Below, in pieces: positions 1-10,432 of a DNA stretch of 42,617 bases. The notes below the pieces were generated by a model. The model was given only the letters and a program-made list of their open reading frames with translations, was not told the DNA's origin and searched no databases. This stretch comes from Bacilli bacterium. Its GTDB lineage: Bacteria; Bacillota_I; Bacilli_A; RFN20; CAG-826. The translations under genes and the position numbers were made by a program. Position 1 is the first letter of the stretch. Each line of letters begins with the position of its first letter. The stretch covers positions 1-42,617 of the forward strand of contig JAKSUY010000007.1 of the NCBI GenBank assembly GCA_024408495.1. The letters are read 5' to 3'.

Positions 1-868
1 CATGAATATTACGGAGGTTAATAATGATAAAGAAGCTAATAAGTGCCTAAGTAAATTCCAGAAAGATTTATTTAATAAAACTAAATTAATGTGTTCGATT
101 GGTGTAGGGCCTACTCGTTTCTTAGCGAAGATGGGTAGTGACTATAAAAAACCAATGGGAATTACTATCATGCGAAAACGCGATATTAAATCAAAGATTT
201 ATCCTTTAAAAGTTCAAGACTTTTATGGGATTGGAATGAGAACCACTCCTCATTTAAGAGCGATTGGAATTAATACCATTGGCGATTTAGCAATTTATCT
301 AGATAAACATAAAAAAGATGCTTTAGCGTTGTTTGGTAAATATTACTATGATGTTAAAGCGTGCCTCGATGGCACTAGCGATGATAAAGTATATTTAGAT
401 GTTGAAGATCCAAAAAGCATTGGCAATTCAATGACTTTAATGATGGATACCGATGATGAAGATGAGATCTTAAAAAGCATCCGCATAATGTCTCAAGAAG
501 TGAGCGCACGTTTAAAAGCAGCGCGGATGAAAGGAAAGACTATCCAACTAACGTTAAAAGATACCGATTTTAAGGTTTACCTTAAATCACACACGTTAGA
601 TAAAGCGATTAATGATTTAGATGATATTTATCAAAATGCGGTAAGTTTATATCGTAAATATTTTAAACGCTTAACCATTCGTTTAGTCGGAGTAACCTTA
701 TCTAATTTAGTGCCGCTTCATGAAGAGAATGTTCAACTATCTTTGTTTGATGATGCTCCTGAAGATAAAATTAATGATGTGATTAATCAGGTTAACCGAA
801 AATTTAAGAAAACAGTGGTGGGGAAAGCCTCAACTATTTTAAAGGATAAAAAACATGCGCATAAGTGA
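1..868 (+). CDS. dinB: DNA polymerase IV (Y-family), 5'-truncated by the window edge
   Basis: Error-prone translesion polymerase acting on stalled replication forks. The 288 visible residues begin inside the palm domain: the first ATG of the window follows the place where the family's SIDExYLD catalytic motif should lie, so roughly 100 N-terminal residues are outside. Visible are the Y-family core motif CSIGVGPTRFLAKMGSDYKKP, the helix-hairpin-helix thumb region around VQDFYGIGMRTTPHLRAIGI, and the little-finger domain. Near the C-terminus is QLSLF (residues 245-249 of the visible part), a good match to the sliding-clamp binding motif, as is usual for Pol IV. The gene ends in TGA and overlaps xerD by 14 bp, implying co-transcription. 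Identification is secure; only the true start is unknown. Confidence 0.93.
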   Translation, partial: MNITEVNNDKEANKCLSKFQKDLFNKTKLMCSIGVGPTRFLAKMGSDYKKPMGITIMRKRDIKSKIYPLKVQDFYGIGMRTTPHLRAIGINTIGDLAIYLDKHKKDALALFGKYYYDVKACLDGTSDDKVYLDVEDPKSIGNSMTLMMDTDDEDEILKSIRIMSQEVSARLKAARMKGKTIQLTLKDTDFKVYLKSHTLDKAINDLDDIYQNAVSLYRKYFKRLTIRLVGVTLSNLVPLHEENVQLSLFDDAPEDKINDVINQVNRKFKKTVVGKASTILKDKKHAHK

Positions 869-1736
869 TGCAATCGAAAAATTTGCTCAACATTTATATG
901 TTGAAAAAGGGTTAAGCAAACAAACTATCGCTTCCTATGATAGCGATCTTAAACAATTTTTCTTATTATATAAGGATAAAGAAGACACCAATGATTTATA
1001 TCCAACTGATTTAAGAGATTTTTTAAGCGTTGAATTAAACAAAGGTCATTCACCCTCAACTGCATTAAGAAGGTTGTCTTCGTGTCGTGCTTTTTATCAC
1101 TTCCTAATTCAAGAGAAAATTATCGATATTACTTTAGATAAAGTATATGCGCCTAAACCAATCAAACATTTGCCATCGGTTTTGACGTTTGAAGAAGTTG
1201 AAGCTTTACTAGATGCACCTAATACAAAAAAAGATGAAGAGTTCCGTGATAAAGCTATGCTTGAATTAATGTATTCATCTGGACTCCGTGTAAGCGAATT
1301 AATAAATCTTGAAGTCAGAAATATTAACTTTAATAAAAGTTATATAACAATTAAAGGTAAAGGAATGAAATATAGAAATGTCCCGATTGGAGAGTATGCA
1401 CTTGAATGGGTATCTACTTATGTAAATGACATAAGATGTCTAAATCGTGGGGCTAAAACTAAATATTTATTTTTAAATCGATATGGTAAACCATTATCGC
1501 GCCAATTTTTCTTTAAGAAAATTAAAGAATACGCGGCTAGAGTTGGAATTACTACGCATGTTTCTCCACACATAATTCGGCATAGTTTCGCTACTCATAT
1601 GTTAGAAAACGGGGCGGAATTAATCGCAGTGCAAGAAATGCTAGGGCACACTAATTTATCAACTACTCAGATATATACGCACGTCTCAACTAAACGAATA
1701 AAAGATGCATATGATTTATATATTAAAAATAAATGA
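855..1736 (+). CDS. xerD: Tyrosine site-specific recombinase XerD
   Basis: Resolves chromosome dimers by strand exchange at dif. The 293-residue protein has the usual Xer layout: an N-terminal SAM-like DNA-binding domain (about 1-95) and a C-terminal catalytic domain with all active residues visible: R145 (SSGLRVSEL), K169 (IKGKGMKYR), H239 and R242 (HIIRHSFATHML), H265 (LGHTNLSTT) and the nucleophile Y274 (TQIYTHV). Length matches XerD (about 298). The start lies inside the end of dinB. The xerD-deoB order is also known from B. subtilis. A candidate dif site lies about 2.4 kb downstream at 4120-4147, so the enzyme and its probable substrate are unusually close. XerC versus XerD cannot be settled by eye; the deoB neighbour favours XerD. 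Confidence 0.93.
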   Translation: MRISDAIEKFAQHLYVEKGLSKQTIASYDSDLKQFFLLYKDKEDTNDLYPTDLRDFLSVELNKGHSPSTALRRLSSCRAFYHFLIQEKIIDITLDKVYAPKPIKHLPSVLTFEEVEALLDAPNTKKDEEFRDKAMLELMYSSGLRVSELINLEVRNINFNKSYITIKGKGMKYRNVPIGEYALEWVSTYVNDIRCLNRGAKTKYLFLNRYGKPLSRQFFFKKIKEYAARVGITTHVSPHIIRHSFATHMLENGAELIAVQEMLGHTNLSTTQIYTHVSTKRIKDAYDLYIKNK

Positions 1737-3242: not shown

Positions 3243-3977
3243 ATGGAAAACGAAAAAATTGAAAAATTAAGAAAATTGATCAAGGAAGCTAAACACATAG
3301 TTTTCTTAACCGGAGCGGGAATTTCTAAACCAAGTGGTATTCCAGATATTCGAGGTAACGATGGTCTAAGTAAAAGAGAAGCCAATAATAAAAAATATGG
3401 AGCGACTTATGAAGAAATTGTTTCGCATGAATATTTTATGTACGAAACTGAAAAATTTTATAAATATTATTTTAACGAGATGATTTTTAAAGATGCAAAA
3501 CCAAATGTTGCACATCAAGCTTTGGCTAGGCTAAATGATAAAGCGGTGGTGGTCACTCAGAACATTGATGGACTTCATACAATCGGTGGGTCAAAAGACG
3601 TCATCGAAATCCATGGTTCAGTGAACAAAAATCGATGCTTAAATTGTCATGCTTTTTATGACCTAAAAGATATGCTAAAATTAGCCCCCTTTCCGAGGTG
3701 CCCAAAATGCGGTGGAATTATTAAGCCAGAAGTGGTGCTATTTAATGAGTCGCTAAATGAGGAAGATTTGAGTAGGGCAGTCAACGAGATTTCTAAGGCT
3801 GATTTATTGATCTGTATTGGAACCAGTTTAGTGGTCAATCCAGCCGCCTCTTTGCCATACTATTTCTTAGGGCGGAACATGGTGATCATAAATAAGGACC
3901 CAACACCCTTAGATTCTAGAGCATCAATAGTCATTAGAGAAGACGTAGCATCCTTCATAGATCAAGTTATAGACTAA
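3243..3977 (+). CDS. cobB: NAD-dependent protein deacylase, Sir2 family
   Basis: Removes acyl groups from lysine using NAD+. The 244-residue protein is a compact bacterial sirtuin. The Rossmann NAD-binding start is GAGISKPSGIPDIRG (residues about 22-36). The catalytic segment is TQNIDGLH, followed by HGS with the active-site His. The zinc module has two Cys pairs (CLNCH and CPKCGG), and GTSLVVNPAASLP binds NAD near the end. The start at 3243 is supported by TAGGAGAAAAATT just before ATG. It is the last rightward gene before the convergent interval containing dif. Arg in PFPRCPKC is encoded by AGG and Arg in PDIRG by CGA, which supports the standard code. Confidence 0.93.
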   Translation: MENEKIEKLRKLIKEAKHIVFLTGAGISKPSGIPDIRGNDGLSKREANNKKYGATYEEIVSHEYFMYETEKFYKYYFNEMIFKDAKPNVAHQALARLNDKAVVVTQNIDGLHTIGGSKDVIEIHGSVNKNRCLNCHAFYDLKDMLKLAPFPRCPKCGGIIKPEVVLFNESLNEEDLSRAVNEISKADLLICIGTSLVVNPAASLPYYFLGRNMVIINKDPTPLDSRASIVIREDVASFIDQVID

Positions 3978-4069
3978 AATACGAATTAGTAGTTTTTTGG
4001 TAAATACTAAACAATACCTAATGGTGTGGAAAACTAGGTTTTTTGACCTAAAAAGTGAAAAACTCTAAA

Positions 4070-4191
4070 AAGTGGATAACTTAACTTTTATTCGATATTA
4101 ACTTTATTTTATATTATTTAGTTAACATAATATACCTTATGCGAAGTTAATGATTTTTTCACCAAGTGACTTTTCTTGTAGTTAACCACTT
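4070..4191. repeat. 12-bp inverted repeat flanking dif
   Basis: AAGTGGATAACT at 4070-4081 and AGTTAACCACTT at 4180-4191 are inverted copies with a single mismatch. Their midpoint is 4130.5, only 3 bp from the midpoint of dif (4133.5). Each arm also resembles a DnaA box (TTATCCACT and TTAACCACT against TTWTNCACA). They may be paired sites for a protein acting at the terminus, but no such role is established. Confidence 0.5.
4120..4147 (+). other. dif: dif chromosome dimer resolution site
   Basis: The 28-bp site has the 11-6-11 structure of a XerCD target: left arm AGTTAACATAA, centre TATACC, right arm TTATGCGAAGT. Compared from memory with the reverse complement of B. subtilis dif (arms AGTTTACATAA and TTCTAGGAAGT), the left arm matches at 10 of 11 and the right arm at 8 of 11 positions. 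The E. coli site shares the core TTAACATAATATA-C-TTATGCG. The location fits: genes on both sides converge on it and C-rich or G-rich strand composition appears to change here. The left arm corresponds to the XerD-bound half. Strand is given by convention. Confidence 0.85.
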
Positions 4192-4498
4192 CCCACCCCT
4201 ATTACTACTAATTTAGCCAAATGGATACCCCTAGGTCAAGGCTTACTCCACCCCCGCTACCGCTATCATCATCTGACCGGGTATAAAACTACTAATTGAG
4301 AGCAAGTTTGCCCCCTTGATTTACCCTATTACTTCATTACCAGTCTAACCCTATAATTATGTATAGGATTTCTAATGAAAAAAATGAGGACTAAATATCT
4401 ACTAATTTTTATGTAGAAGTCGCCCCTACTTTTCCCTATCTTTTTTGATATAAATTTTAGCCTAATTTTTAATAGGGATTTTTACCCCTAAATTTACC

Positions 4499-4825
4499 CT
4501 ACTTTTTTCGGGTTAAAATTTGGGTCAAATTAAAGCGCTCTCTTTCGCTCTTAGAAAACACGTTGATTATAACATGATAAGCATCAATCAAAACCCACCC
4601 ACTTTTGGCCTTACCTTCTACGTGGTTTAGTTTCACTTTATTTAATTCAAGCTCCCCCACTACTGCATCTCTAATTGCATCAATTTGGCGTGGATTGTTT
4701 GCAGAACAAATGACATAGTAGTTAGTAAAAGGTGTAAGAGCTTTAACATCTATTATTTCCACCTTCTCACCTTTTTTATCTAGAATCGCTTTCTTAATTA
4801 CTTTTAGTAAATCTTTCTCGCTCAT
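4499..4825 (-). CDS. rsfS: Ribosome silencing factor RsfS
   Basis: RsfS (Iojap/YbeB family) binds ribosomal protein L14 on the 50S subunit and blocks subunit joining in starvation. The 108-residue product has the typical family sequence: an N-terminal helix (SEKDLLKVIKKAI), the core VEIIDVKALTPFTNYYVICSA, then KSGWVLIDAYHVIINVFS near the end. The start at 4825 is chosen over an upstream ATG because AGGAG sits just before it and the ATG overlaps the TAA of the preceding nadD/yqeK gene (TAATG), a sign of translational coupling. It is the last gene of the run that begins with parE. nadD-yqeK-rsfS is a common Firmicute order. Confidence 0.93.
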   Translation of the reverse strand: MSEKDLLKVIKKAILDKKGEKVEIIDVKALTPFTNYYVICSANNPRQIDAIRDAVVGELELNKVKLNHVEGKAKSGWVLIDAYHVIINVFSKSERERFNLTQILTRKK

Positions 4826-5928
4826 TATTTTTCTCCTAAGTACAGTTCCATGCATGATTTAGTTAGTGGATTATCAAAACTTAATCCATTCTTAATTAAA
4901 TGCTTTCTATTCTCATTAAGAACAAGTTGGAAGCCGCTATAATAATCCTTATAACATGCGCGTATAAGTTTTTTAGAATCGTATCCACGTAGTGGATCTA
5001 CTTTATCTGCGGCATATACAATCTTACTTATAGGTGTCATATTCATTTTGCCAGTTGCATGAAACTTAATTGCATCTAAGATGGATTCGTTATTAATATT
5101 AAGTTCGGTTTTAGCGAGATAGGCACCGACAAATTGATGATATAGAGTTGGCGGTAACCCAGTTAAATATTCTTTATAATATTTATTCATGATTTCTTTT
5201 TGTTTAATGTCGTTTACTTTTTTACCTAAATCATGAAGGAGCCCTGCTATATAACAATCATTTGTGTCGACCCGATGATTGTTCTTAGCAATCGCATACG
5301 CTACGTTAGCTACACTGACTGCATGTTTAAAGCGCTCTTCTGAATAGCGAGCCTTAACATCCTTTATGTAATAAAGTTCATGCTCAACGATATAGTCTAG
5401 AACCTCTTTTGGAGTATCAAGTTCGCTTAATGCACGAATTGCTTTACTTGAGATAGTACCACTGCCTTCATAAGATAAAGGAGTCATATTGTATTTTTTA
5501 ATGTTTTCTTCTTTAACTATAATACCCGGACGTTCTACATAAATAATATGTGCTAGGTGCGCGAGTTCATCAGCGTCTTTCCAATCATGAAATGATTCGA
5601 CTTGGTCCGCTCCAATTAACAAACAGATTTCACGGTTCTTAAATTTATTAACAAAATATTTAACCGTATCAATTGTGTAATTTGTGTCAGCCTTACTTTT
5701 TATCTCGTAATCGGAAATGTAAACGCTGCCAGTCCCTTCTTTTTTTAGGGCGATGCGAAGCATGTTATGACGATCAGTGATACTTGCATGCGGTTTCTTC
5801 CATCTTGGATTTTTAGCGGGAACAAAGACCACATCTGCATTTAATTTTAAAGAAGCATAACGCGCAATTCGTAGATGTCCGTTATGAACCGGATCGAATG
5901 TTCCACCAAACAAGATTACTTTTTCCAT
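4825..5928 (-). CDS. nadD: Fused NadD adenylyltransferase and YqeK HD-domain Ap4A hydrolase
   Basis: A 367-residue two-domain protein. Residues 1 to about 190 are nicotinate-mononucleotide adenylyltransferase (deamido-NAD synthesis): GGTFDPVHNGH (8-18) is the nucleotidyltransferase HxGH motif and ISSKAIR (159-165) is the ISSTxIR-like motif. Residues about 195-367 are a YqeK-type HD hydrolase, a family shown to split diadenosine tetraphosphate symmetrically. H202 (RFKHAVSVA) and H232-D233 (LLHDLGKKV) are visible metal ligands. In most Firmicutes these are two adjacent genes; a fused form is known in mycoplasmas (MG240). The start lies a few bases after the yhbY stop with no Shine-Dalgarno sequence, so it probably relies on coupling. 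Confidence 0.93.
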   Translation of the reverse strand: MEKVILFGGTFDPVHNGHLRIARYASLKLNADVVFVPAKNPRWKKPHASITDRHNMLRIALKKEGTGSVYISDYEIKSKADTNYTIDTVKYFVNKFKNREICLLIGADQVESFHDWKDADELAHLAHIIYVERPGIIVKEENIKKYNMTPLSYEGSGTISSKAIRALSELDTPKEVLDYIVEHELYYIKDVKARYSEERFKHAVSVANVAYAIAKNNHRVDTNDCYIAGLLHDLGKKVNDIKQKEIMNKYYKEYLTGLPPTLYHQFVGAYLAKTELNINNESILDAIKFHATGKMNMTPISKIVYAADKVDPLRGYDSKKLIRACYKDYYSGFQLVLNENRKHLIKNGLSFDNPLTKSCMELYLGEK

Positions 5929-7347: not shown

Positions 7348-7868
7348 AACGCCTCTTTCCAATTATTAAGTTTACCACATTTTTGTAAACGCGCGCGTAT
7401 ATGTTTATCGCGTAATCGATTAATACGCGTAATAAAGAATTCACTTTTAGTTAACGGTTCTAGTAATAAAGTTTTAATTTTAAGAGCATTTCCGCATGCT
7501 ATGTCAGTAATTAATTGGTCCCCGATTACAATGCAATCTTGAGGGTTGATACCTAACCCGTTCAATCTTTTCTTTAAGACGCGTCCAAATGGTTTATAGA
7601 CACGGGTAATACACTCTATCTCAAGTGCACGCGCGTAGTTTTTTACATGATTTGATGTATTATTGCTTACAATAATTGGTCGGATTTTAAGCTCTTTCAA
7701 TTGTTTGATGTAATTAACAACTCGTTTGCTAGGATTAGTAGTTTTATAGTTATCTAAAGTGTTGTCTAAATCAAGCAATAAAACATTAGTTTTAATCCGA
7801 TGAAAAAATACCGGATTCACCTCGAATATGTTATTAGCATAATAAGTTGGTGTGTAACGTTTCATCAT
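7344..7868 (-). CDS. yqeG: YqeG-family HAD phosphatase
   Basis: HAD-superfamily subclass IIIA phosphatase of 174 residues. Motif I is LLLDLDNTLDNY, motif II the Ser/Thr of PIIVSNNT, and motif III lies around YKPFGRVLKK and VIGDQLITDIACGN. The family's cellular role is poorly defined. It is regularly found directly before yqeH, as here (4-bp overlap). Two adjacent ATG codons are possible starts (7868 or 7865); the first overlaps the TGA of parC (ATGA), which favours coupling. The gene lies at 4-bp overlaps on both sides, so it must share the parE-parC transcript. Confidence 0.9.
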   Translation of the reverse strand: MMKRYTPTYYANNIFEVNPVFFHRIKTNVLLLDLDNTLDNYKTTNPSKRVVNYIKQLKELKIRPIIVSNNTSNHVKNYARALEIECITRVYKPFGRVLKKRLNGLGINPQDCIVIGDQLITDIACGNALKIKTLLLEPLTKSEFFITRINRLRDKHIRARLQKCGKLNNWKEAL

Positions 7869-10432
7869 TTATTATCTTCGTCAAACATGGAAATTTGAGT
7901 ATATTTTTCGTTTTTAGTATTAGTGTCTTTTACTTCATTAACCGGGATCGGTTTTGGTTTATAAGTTGATTTTAATTTTGGATCAACGTGCTCGCCGTGT
8001 GAATATAGACGTAATAAATGGTCTTTTTTAATAACTGGTAAATTAGTTTTTGCATATTTATCTAAAGGTGTCATATAGAAATCAGTAATCTTTAGATTAA
8101 GTAGACCCTTGAGTTGTGATAAAGCATAAACATTAATTGAATCACCGACATCAATTAATTTCTTAACCGCAATAATCTTGTGTGGGTCGCCTTTAAATGT
8201 GGGCATAATTACGACCGGTTTAATTAAACGTTTAGTTAAAGGCACATGGAGATTATCAATCATTCTTGAACAACCATGGTCGGTTATTATCATAACCTTG
8301 GTTTTTTCATCTTTCCCAAAAGTAAGCATTGCGGCAACATAAGTTTTGTTTAACTTAACCGCTTTTACACCACCGGCTTTTGGACCAATTGGAGTTAAGA
8401 CATCTTCGTTATAGAAACTAGCTTCGCCGTTTGCTAAGAATAACAAGATATTATCGCTACCAGTAGAAACTGATACATCTATCATTTCATCGTTGGCGAG
8501 TAAACGCATTGCGGTATAAGTACGATTATATTTTGTTGTAACAAAATCCGACATTAGTGTACGTTTAATTTGTCCATTCTTACTAACTAATACGAAGAAT
8601 AAATCTTTTCTAAATGCTTTTACGGTAAAAGCATTGATGATTTTTTCTTCTTGCGCATTATAAGTAATGTTTATACTTAATGGTTTACCTTCATCCTTCC
8701 ATTTAGTTTCAGGAATCTGGTGAATTGGTAATACCACAAAATTACCTTTGTTAGTAAAAGCAATCAAGAAGTCTTCAGTATTGGCTTGATGCGATAAAAC
8801 AAGACAATCGCCAGCCTTAACTCCAGGTAGACATTCTTCGCTACTCATGTAACTCTTAATCGAACTACGTTTTACGTAGCCATCACGAGTCATGGCCACC
8901 ATAACATCTTCTTTATTAATAAGGTCGCGTTGGTCGAATTCTTTATCTTCTTTATCGATATGTTTAATAATTGTGCGACGTTCATCGCCGTACTTTTTCG
9001 CAATTTCTCTTAAATCATGTACAAGTTCTTTATTAAGAACTTTTCTGTCATCTAGAATTGCTTTTAAGCGTGCGATTTCGCTTTCTAAAGTTCTCTTCTC
9101 TTCATTAAGGATATTTACATCTGTATGACTTAATTTATATAAAGGCATCATGACGATTGCTTCGCTTTGTGCTTCAGTGAATTGGTATTTTTCTTGAAGC
9201 TTAAGTTTAGCATCGGCTTTATCTTTACTGGCTCTAATTATTTTAATTACTTCATCTAAATCTTTAATGGCTTTAATTAAGCCAACTACGATTTCTAGTC
9301 TTGCTTTATTTTTCACTAAATCAAAATTAGAAACGCGAGTAATTACACTTACTTGATGTTCGATATAACAATCAATATAATCTAAGATATTTAAAGTACG
9401 TGGATGCCCATTAACAATTGCAACAATATTAGCGGTATAACCTGTGGTTAAACCGGTTTTACTCATTAAGAATTTTAGAATGGCATCAGGATTAACGCCT
9501 TTACGACAATCAACCACAATCTTAAGACCGCGACGATCACTTTCATCTCTTACTTCTAAAATACCTTCGATAATTTTCTTATGGCGAATTTCATCGATTT
9601 CGTGAACGATATTAATCTTTACGGCTTTGTATGGGATTTCGGTAATGACAATCTTATTAACCTTGTCATTTGTGTTAATTTTCGCACGAGCGGTAATTTC
9701 AATACGTCCGTGTCCAGTTAAATAGATATTCTTTAAACCTTCACTAGAAACAATGACTCCGCCAGTTGGGAAATCAGGTCCACGAACAAATTTCATTAAG
9801 TCACGCGGTTCAGCGTCTTTATGATAAATTCGATAAATAATCGCTTCAATTAATTCGTTTAAATTGTGCGGAGGAATTTCGGTTGCTAAAGCAACGGCAA
9901 TTCCTTCTGCCCCATTAATAAAAAGGTTAGGGAAACGCGCTGGAAGTACGACTGGTTCATATTCAGTATCATCATAAGTGAGAGCTTTCTCTACTGCATT
10001 TTTATTTAAATCACGAACAAGTTCATCGGCTAAAGCAGAAAGCTTTGCTTCAGTATAACGATATGCAGCGGGTTGGTCACCATCGATACTACCATTATTA
10101 CCTTGGAAGGTGATGAGTGGCATTCTCACTTTCCAGTCTTGACTCATTCTCGCTAAAGCTTCGTAAACACTAGTATCACCATGTGGGTGATATTTACCAA
10201 TAACATCACCAACAATCTTCGCGCACTTACGGGTTTTAAATTGGGATGTGTTGTGATTAGACCACATCGAATAAATTATTCTTCTTTGAACGGGTTTAAG
10301 ACCATCACGAGCATCTGGAATAGCACGATCTTGAATAACGTATTTAGCATAAATACCATAACGATCGCCCATGACATCATCAAGCGGTTCGATGACTATA
10401 TTTTCTTTCAATAGTTTTACTTCGTCCGCCAT
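7865..10432 (-). CDS. parC: DNA topoisomerase IV subunit A
   Basis: Catalytic strand-breaking subunit of topoisomerase IV, which decatenates daughter chromosomes. The 855 residues include the winged-helix 5Y-CAP domain with YHPHGDTSVYEAL (81-93), the ParC-type GNNGSID (GyrA has GNFGS), and the active-site tyrosine Y126 in AAYRYTEAKL. The coiled-coil C-gate arms lie around 378-460, and a C-terminal beta-propeller follows. No GyrA-box QRRGG sequence was seen, again favouring ParC. The protein ends in YTQISMFDEDNK, where QISMF resembles a sliding-clamp motif. parE lies one base upstream. The segment at residues 378-457 is the part that resembles the insert in the ABC ATPase at 15719-17641. Confidence 0.95.
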   Translation of the reverse strand: MADEVKLLKENIVIEPLDDVMGDRYGIYAKYVIQDRAIPDARDGLKPVQRRIIYSMWSNHNTSQFKTRKCAKIVGDVIGKYHPHGDTSVYEALARMSQDWKVRMPLITFQGNNGSIDGDQPAAYRYTEAKLSALADELVRDLNKNAVEKALTYDDTEYEPVVLPARFPNLFINGAEGIAVALATEIPPHNLNELIEAIIYRIYHKDAEPRDLMKFVRGPDFPTGGVIVSSEGLKNIYLTGHGRIEITARAKINTNDKVNKIVITEIPYKAVKINIVHEIDEIRHKKIIEGILEVRDESDRRGLKIVVDCRKGVNPDAILKFLMSKTGLTTGYTANIVAIVNGHPRTLNILDYIDCYIEHQVSVITRVSNFDLVKNKARLEIVVGLIKAIKDLDEVIKIIRASKDKADAKLKLQEKYQFTEAQSEAIVMMPLYKLSHTDVNILNEEKRTLESEIARLKAILDDRKVLNKELVHDLREIAKKYGDERRTIIKHIDKEDKEFDQRDLINKEDVMVAMTRDGYVKRSSIKSYMSSEECLPGVKAGDCLVLSHQANTEDFLIAFTNKGNFVVLPIHQIPETKWKDEGKPLSINITYNAQEEKIINAFTVKAFRKDLFFVLVSKNGQIKRTLMSDFVTTKYNRTYTAMRLLANDEMIDVSVSTGSDNILLFLANGEASFYNEDVLTPIGPKAGGVKAVKLNKTYVAAMLTFGKDEKTKVMIITDHGCSRMIDNLHVPLTKRLIKPVVIMPTFKGDPHKIIAVKKLIDVGDSINVYALSQLKGLLNLKITDFYMTPLDKYAKTNLPVIKKDHLLRLYSHGEHVDPKLKSTYKPKPIPVNEVKDTNTKNEKYTQISMFDEDNK

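Follow-up and report, generated by a model that had tools for sequence, protein, structure and literature searches.

The XerCD/dif system of E. coli and the CodV-RipX/dif system of B. subtilis have in common a 28-bp site of 11-6-11 design at the terminus, two recombinases and an FtsK-type translocase. In the genomes of Kono et al., xerD genes lie mostly near the origin (PMC3025954), and linkage between a recombinase gene and its site is known from single-recombinase systems (PMC5357621, PMC2731167), among them XerS/difSL, which is defined by a 31-bp site with an 11-bp centre (PMC5357621). A chromosomal dif with a 6-bp centre is taken to need no accessory elements (PMC2731167). The accepted picture is one of a bare 28-bp dif core without accessory DNA and of two-recombinase genes that are scattered; the clade described here appears to hold clade-wide exceptions to both.

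We analysed a window (a whole stretch of 42,617 nucleotides) that forms contig C67 of a 72-contig draft genome from an uncultured gut member of the Bacilli (1,282,060 bases, 85% complete). By its XerD, the closest named record is the MAG ‘Bacilli bacterium isolate Horse_feces346’ (92% identical); the lineage may be the GTDB order RF39. Our main reading, to which we give a probability of roughly 0.87, is that the window carries a standard XerC/XerD-FtsK dif at the terminus, that the nearness of xerD is an old gene order of the class, and that the XerD-box side of the site holds a dif-anchored cis element. The genes around the site are as follows; names beyond the profile search of the window rest on tblastn with the window proteins, or on inspection.

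2..868, plus strand: DinB-like Y-family polymerase, upstream of xerD, cut by the contig end; named by inspection
855..1736, plus strand: xerD (293 aa), on the XerD-box side and transcribed towards dif; TIGR02225
1754..2944, plus strand: deoB (phosphopentomutase), partner of xerD in a conserved cluster; TIGR01696
3243..3977, plus strand: Sir2-family deacylase, between deoB and dif
4120-4147, minus strand: dif, with XerC box 4137-4147, centre 4131-4136 and XerD box 4120-4130
4499..4855, minus strand: rsfS, first gene on the XerC-box side, convergent on dif; TIGR00090
4825..7868, minus strand: nadD/yqeK, yhbY, yqeH and yqeG
7865-10432, minus strand: parC (topoisomerase IV); TIGR01061
10434-12356, minus strand: parE (topoisomerase IV); TIGR01058

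A canonical dif site at the terminus

On the minus strand the site reads ACTTCGCATAA-GGTATA-TTATGTTAACT (window 4120-4147; 11-6-11, 28 bp) and is identical to E. coli dif at 23/28 positions (E. coli sequence within locus L326) and, presumably, to B. subtilis dif at about 22/28. It is the single match in the 1.28-Mb genome at ≤3 mismatches, a search of the draft for other dif-like sites having returned no second or better match at that threshold, and 100 shuffles of the window gave zero matches. Within the genus the 28 bp are unchanged, and most of the surrounding intergenic DNA has diverged. With a degenerate pattern, dif-like sites were found in 97/124 genomes of the family and 124/156 of the order. 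The XerD arm of the site is conserved. A peculiarity is at dif position 12 (window 4136, the first centre base), which is G here and in genus g23 besides the window’s own genus, and T in 80/81 compared sites. The original prediction had taken 4120-4147 for the dimer-resolution site, lying where gene directions converge; both points stand, with the plus-strand sir2 gene (ending at 3977) and the minus-strand rsfS gene (ending at 4499) facing an intergenic dif, and on this evidence from the DNA we consider the site a genuine chromosome-dimer resolution site.

Several observations touch on the site and its surroundings. The dif-rsfS intergenic region (4148-4498) has a strong run polarity, with 18 CCC versus 2 GGG on the plus strand. 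Locus L152 (genome G164, family f16) has dif-like sites in opposite orientation, at C1:1181635 (+) and 1181686 (-), with starts 51 bp apart. In families f9 and f20, whose genomes are small (mostly 0.6-1.6 Mb), dif matches are almost wholly missing, as would be expected if the system had been lost.

The same prediction placed the window in the terminus region, and the genomes of relatives support this. In the window itself, GC skew changes sign at dif and reverses again at 14-22 kb because of a plus-strand operon there, so that in-window skew mostly tracks gene direction; fourfold-site skew within the window gives a weak hint only. Since the host genome is a 72-contig draft, whole-genome skew was followed in two relatives with nearly complete genomes. 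In G116, a single contig of 1,061,998 b, the sign of the sampled skew changes from plus to minus at dif (719,220) and reverts near 203 kb; ten DnaA-box-like sites stand there, just upstream of genes read as dnaA-dnaN-recF. In G121 (main contig, 1,481,977 b) dif, at 298,530, again marks the skew switch, and the DnaA-box cluster of oriC, likewise just upstream of genes read as dnaA-dnaN-recF, is at 1,023,070-1,023,337 of the main contig. In both, oriC is nearly opposite dif. Canonical KOPS and SRS octamers had no useful skew in the G116 sample, in which the most skewed octamers were mostly AT-rich and not diagnostic.

Two recombinases and an FtsK translocase

Because the recombinase gene and the site are so closely linked (2,384 bp from the end of xerD at 1736 to dif), the locus had been likened to a single-recombinase XerS/difSL or XerH/difH module, in which the linked xerD would resolve dimers alone. 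A PF00589 search of the draft genome gave the window’s xerD as its sole match, which would fit such a module. However, residues 1-136 of an XerC are encoded at the very edge of contig C57 of the same genome, 71% identical to the same-genus XerC used as query, and the PF00589 search missed this gene because its catalytic domain lies off the contig. Relatives carry intact XerC, the catalytic R-K-HxxR-H-Y set being kept in the XerC proteins of nine of them, and across 29 genera of the family most genomes encode at least two tyrosine recombinases. The window XerD scores 118.7 bits against the XerS model NF003462 (cut-off 267), and the dif centre is the canonical 6 bp, not the 11 bp of a 31-bp difSL-type site. 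As in XerH/difH the recombinase gene is linked to the site, but a second recombinase exists. The single-recombinase module was rejected on account of the XerC fragment, and we regard it as hardly tenable.

In its scores the window protein is an ordinary XerD (TIGR02225, 328 bits, cut-off 329.6; TIGR02224 for XerC, 299.5 bits), and its deoB neighbour is ordinary too, both as had been surmised. FtsK with a gamma domain is also encoded in the genome (G000:C36; PF09397, 37.6 bits, cut-off 30.6). The system is thus one of two recombinases.

Linkage of xerD and dif across the class

The closeness of xerD to dif is real and far more widespread than expected. The family has 82 genomes in which dif shares a contig with a listed recombinase (in 11 more the two are on different contigs); in 82/82 of these, xerD lies on the XerD-box side at 1.4-6.3 kb and is directed at dif. 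Most sampled families of the order share the layout dinB-xerD-deoB > dif < rsfS-nadD-yhbY-yqeH-yqeG-parC-parE, and Candidatus Fiminaster equi has the same cluster. The Sir2-family deacylase occupies its place in the window and its nearest relatives (L163, L164, L173 and L268). The window’s parC-parE pair is 3.7-8.2 kb from dif, a conserved position; separately, most sampled order members (L076, L083-L122) and some other families have parC-parE on the XerC-box side, at a distance of 3-10 kb.

At the level of the class, xerD is ≤10 kb from dif in 62/80 sampled loci and 17/24 families. In families f16, f17, f22 and f26 it is 51-236 kb away (genomes of 1.7-3.0 Mb), a range that becomes 8-236 kb once some f23 members are added. 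Of 23 genomes outside the class, 14 gave a dif-like match, and none of the matches fell inside the up-to-10-kb flanks of their xerD. We found no report of xerD-dif linkage in two-recombinase systems in the open-access literature. In L097 and L161 (f4) and L160 (genome G459, f15), dif itself is apparently inverted in place, the flanking genes of both sides swapping and staying near. Re-association of xerD with the other side was considered for these cases (f4; G459, f15) and rejected: the flanking EF-P and MBL-fold genes swap together with xerD, so that inversion of dif in place is simpler. Judged by these gene orders, xerD and dif have long been neighbours in the class, through a conserved gene order rather than a single-recombinase module.

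Whether selection has maintained the linkage beyond mere inheritance, through the timing or dosage of XerD or its local supply at the site, is a further matter. In favour of selection, xerD forms the commonest gene cluster near dif (17 families; 1398 ORFs from 80 loci), followed by deoB (16 families), dinB (9), parC (8) and parE (7), with 5-8 families for the genes on the opposite side; it remains close where deoB was not found nearby (L144, L157, L158); and even the families without close linkage keep it at the distances given above. Against it, sampled loci of f8, f11, f16, f17, f22, f24 and f26 have no xerD ≤10 kb from dif and show no obvious harm, descent alone can conserve terminus gene order, and the two side swaps resemble inversions of dif rather than re-associations. 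On balance we think selection for the linkage rather unlikely.

A conserved element on the XerD-box side

When 8-mers were compared without bias over 300 bp on each side of dif, enrichment was much the strongest on the XerD-box side. The element takes two forms there: in the window’s order, TTAGTAG repeats spaced 11 bp together with TGTGGAWAA; the form of other families is a 9-mer similar to TTATCCACA, at a distance of exactly 47 bp. In the window it comprises the following.

3984..3992, plus strand: AATTAGTAG, with TTAGTAG at 3986-3992, -134 from dif; the window’s sole copy of the order-wide repeat spaced 11 bp
4025..4033, plus strand: TGTGGAAAA, a DnaA-box-like 9-mer, -95 from dif
4071..4079, plus strand: AGTGGATAA, a second DnaA-box-like 9-mer, -49 from dif (TGTGGATAA in the nearest relative, L163)

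In families f1-f3, the 200 bp to the left of dif contain TAGTA pairs with 11-bp spacing at 5.42/kb, versus 0.043/kb elsewhere, and TGTGGAWAA at 2.92/kb versus 0.011/kb; the boxes cluster at about -104, -95 and -83, with iteron steps of about 10.5-11 bp. For the other families the mean match to TTATCCACA outside dif peaks at -47, then at -56. The hypothesis was fixed before 40 unseen genomes were obtained, 28 for the -47 box and 12 of the order. In the 28, the mean match at -47 was 6.78/9 (z 8.4), the best of about 560 offsets; iterons were present in 10/12 of the order genomes and strict boxes in 9/12, so that both forms were borne out. Pooled, 29/45 sites match at ≥7/9 at -47, against a background of 1.15%. 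Related genomes are not independent and formal P values overstate certainty, though the flanks are otherwise hardly alignable. From these comparisons of DNA, a conserved dif-anchored element is shown to exist on the XerD-box side. It is absent or unrecognised in f4-f7, f11, f12, f13, f15, f16, f18, f22 and f23 and in some members of f25, f10 and g25, and is therefore not essential everywhere; in 801 bp around E. coli dif there is no DnaA-box-like element. On the XerC-box side of the window, CTACTAATT occurs three times (4205, 4289 and 4399), inverted relative to the left-hand AATTAGTAG, and right-hand copies are present in genus relatives too.

The element often lies just past the stop codon of the left gene, which would suit a conserved RNA, a terminator or a gene tail that stands beside dif by chance. 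The spacing argues otherwise, with a standard deviation of 7 bp for box to dif versus 225 bp for box to gene stop (the latter inflated by one outlier). In nine members of f14, CCACA at the box is the longest invariant run within the 110 bp before dif, and the alignment has no predicted pairs; Rfam gave no match, and the window element contains no terminator-like site. An RNA element was rejected for want of an Rfam match and a consensus structure, and chance adjacency of this kind is very improbable.

The element reads best as a putative protein-binding site, for which DnaA is the simplest candidate ligand because the 9-mers match DnaA boxes and the oriC regions of G121 and G116 use the same forms, TGTGGAAAA included. 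Its fixed position and register of roughly 11 bp hint at a protein, with DnaA the simplest choice, whose rotational setting beside the XerD subunit would be constant. Since the 11-bp period is unlike the 3-nt period of DnaA-trios, we do not claim trio membership. That DnaA occupies the dif-flank 9-mers, and any function it may have there, we infer from motif identity. A different ligand, for example a replication-terminator protein or a Xer accessory factor, is a serious contender, if at slightly less than even odds: the 11-bp iterons have no likeness to any oriC feature found and do not occur in the oriC clusters of G116 or G121, some -47 sites are TTATCAACA or ATATCCACA, and terminator-protein sites occur in the dif region of B. 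subtilis and E. coli too (PMC13220808). On the other side, standard DnaA-box variants make up most of the 9-mers at -47 and -95, and these variants also fill the oriC of the same genomes or of sister genomes. More tentatively, dif in a large part of the class may be a composite in which a DnaA-bound element is phased with the XerD box, next to xerD (and to parCE in the window’s order). A DnaA-box-like motif at a fixed distance from dif is apparently unreported, no account of a DnaA box tied to dif having been found in the open-access literature.

Proposed mechanism and implications

In the main reading, XerD (gene 855-1736) would bind the XerD box at 4120-4130, and XerC, whose gene lies elsewhere and is broken by a contig end in the draft, would bind 4137-4147; septal FtsK would then join two dif copies and trigger strand exchange in the 6-bp centre. 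These steps are drawn from sequence and family knowledge. Beside the XerD subunit, the flank of dif may carry a rotationally fixed protein, DnaA being the simplest candidate. The element may assist or time XerCD, titrate DnaA or stall forks.

If dif were such a composite, dimer resolution would be coupled to the replication initiator at the locus that is copied last; the element might, for instance, signal that replication is complete, or act as a sink for DnaA that doubles on replication of the terminus. Because the conserved DnaA-box-like site keeps a constant distance from dif, a connection of initiation control with termination or segregation can be tested directly. Linked xerD and the 47-bp rule also offer a simple confirmation of dif in draft genomes of a group rich in uncultured members.

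Comparison with known systems

The xerD-deoB pair is a likeness between the window locus and known two-recombinase systems, ripX-drm of B. subtilis being, as we assume, its counterpart. The locus differs from the XerCD systems of E. coli and B. subtilis in having xerD beside dif, and a DnaA-box-like element at a fixed distance. It resembles XerS/difSL of streptococci and lactococci and XerH/difH of epsilon-proteobacteria in that a recombinase gene is linked to the site, but those systems have one recombinase and atypical sites, in contrast to the recombinase pair and canonical site of this genome. Plasmid cer and psi (PepA/ArgR) likewise combine a Xer core with a one-sided conserved DNA element at set spacing; the present site differs in its chromosomal terminus location, its 6-bp centre and its motif. 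In E. coli, XerC mediates the action of Topo IV at dif (PMC4865107), whereas here there is only the physical nearness of the parCE genes to dif. The DnaA-box/DnaA-trio region of B. subtilis oriC, with a trio consensus of 3′-GAT-5′ (PMC10201434), is alike in placing a 9-mer a few turns from TAG-containing motifs; the dif flank differs from it in a period of 11 bp rather than 3, in having no box cluster, and in its location at the terminus.
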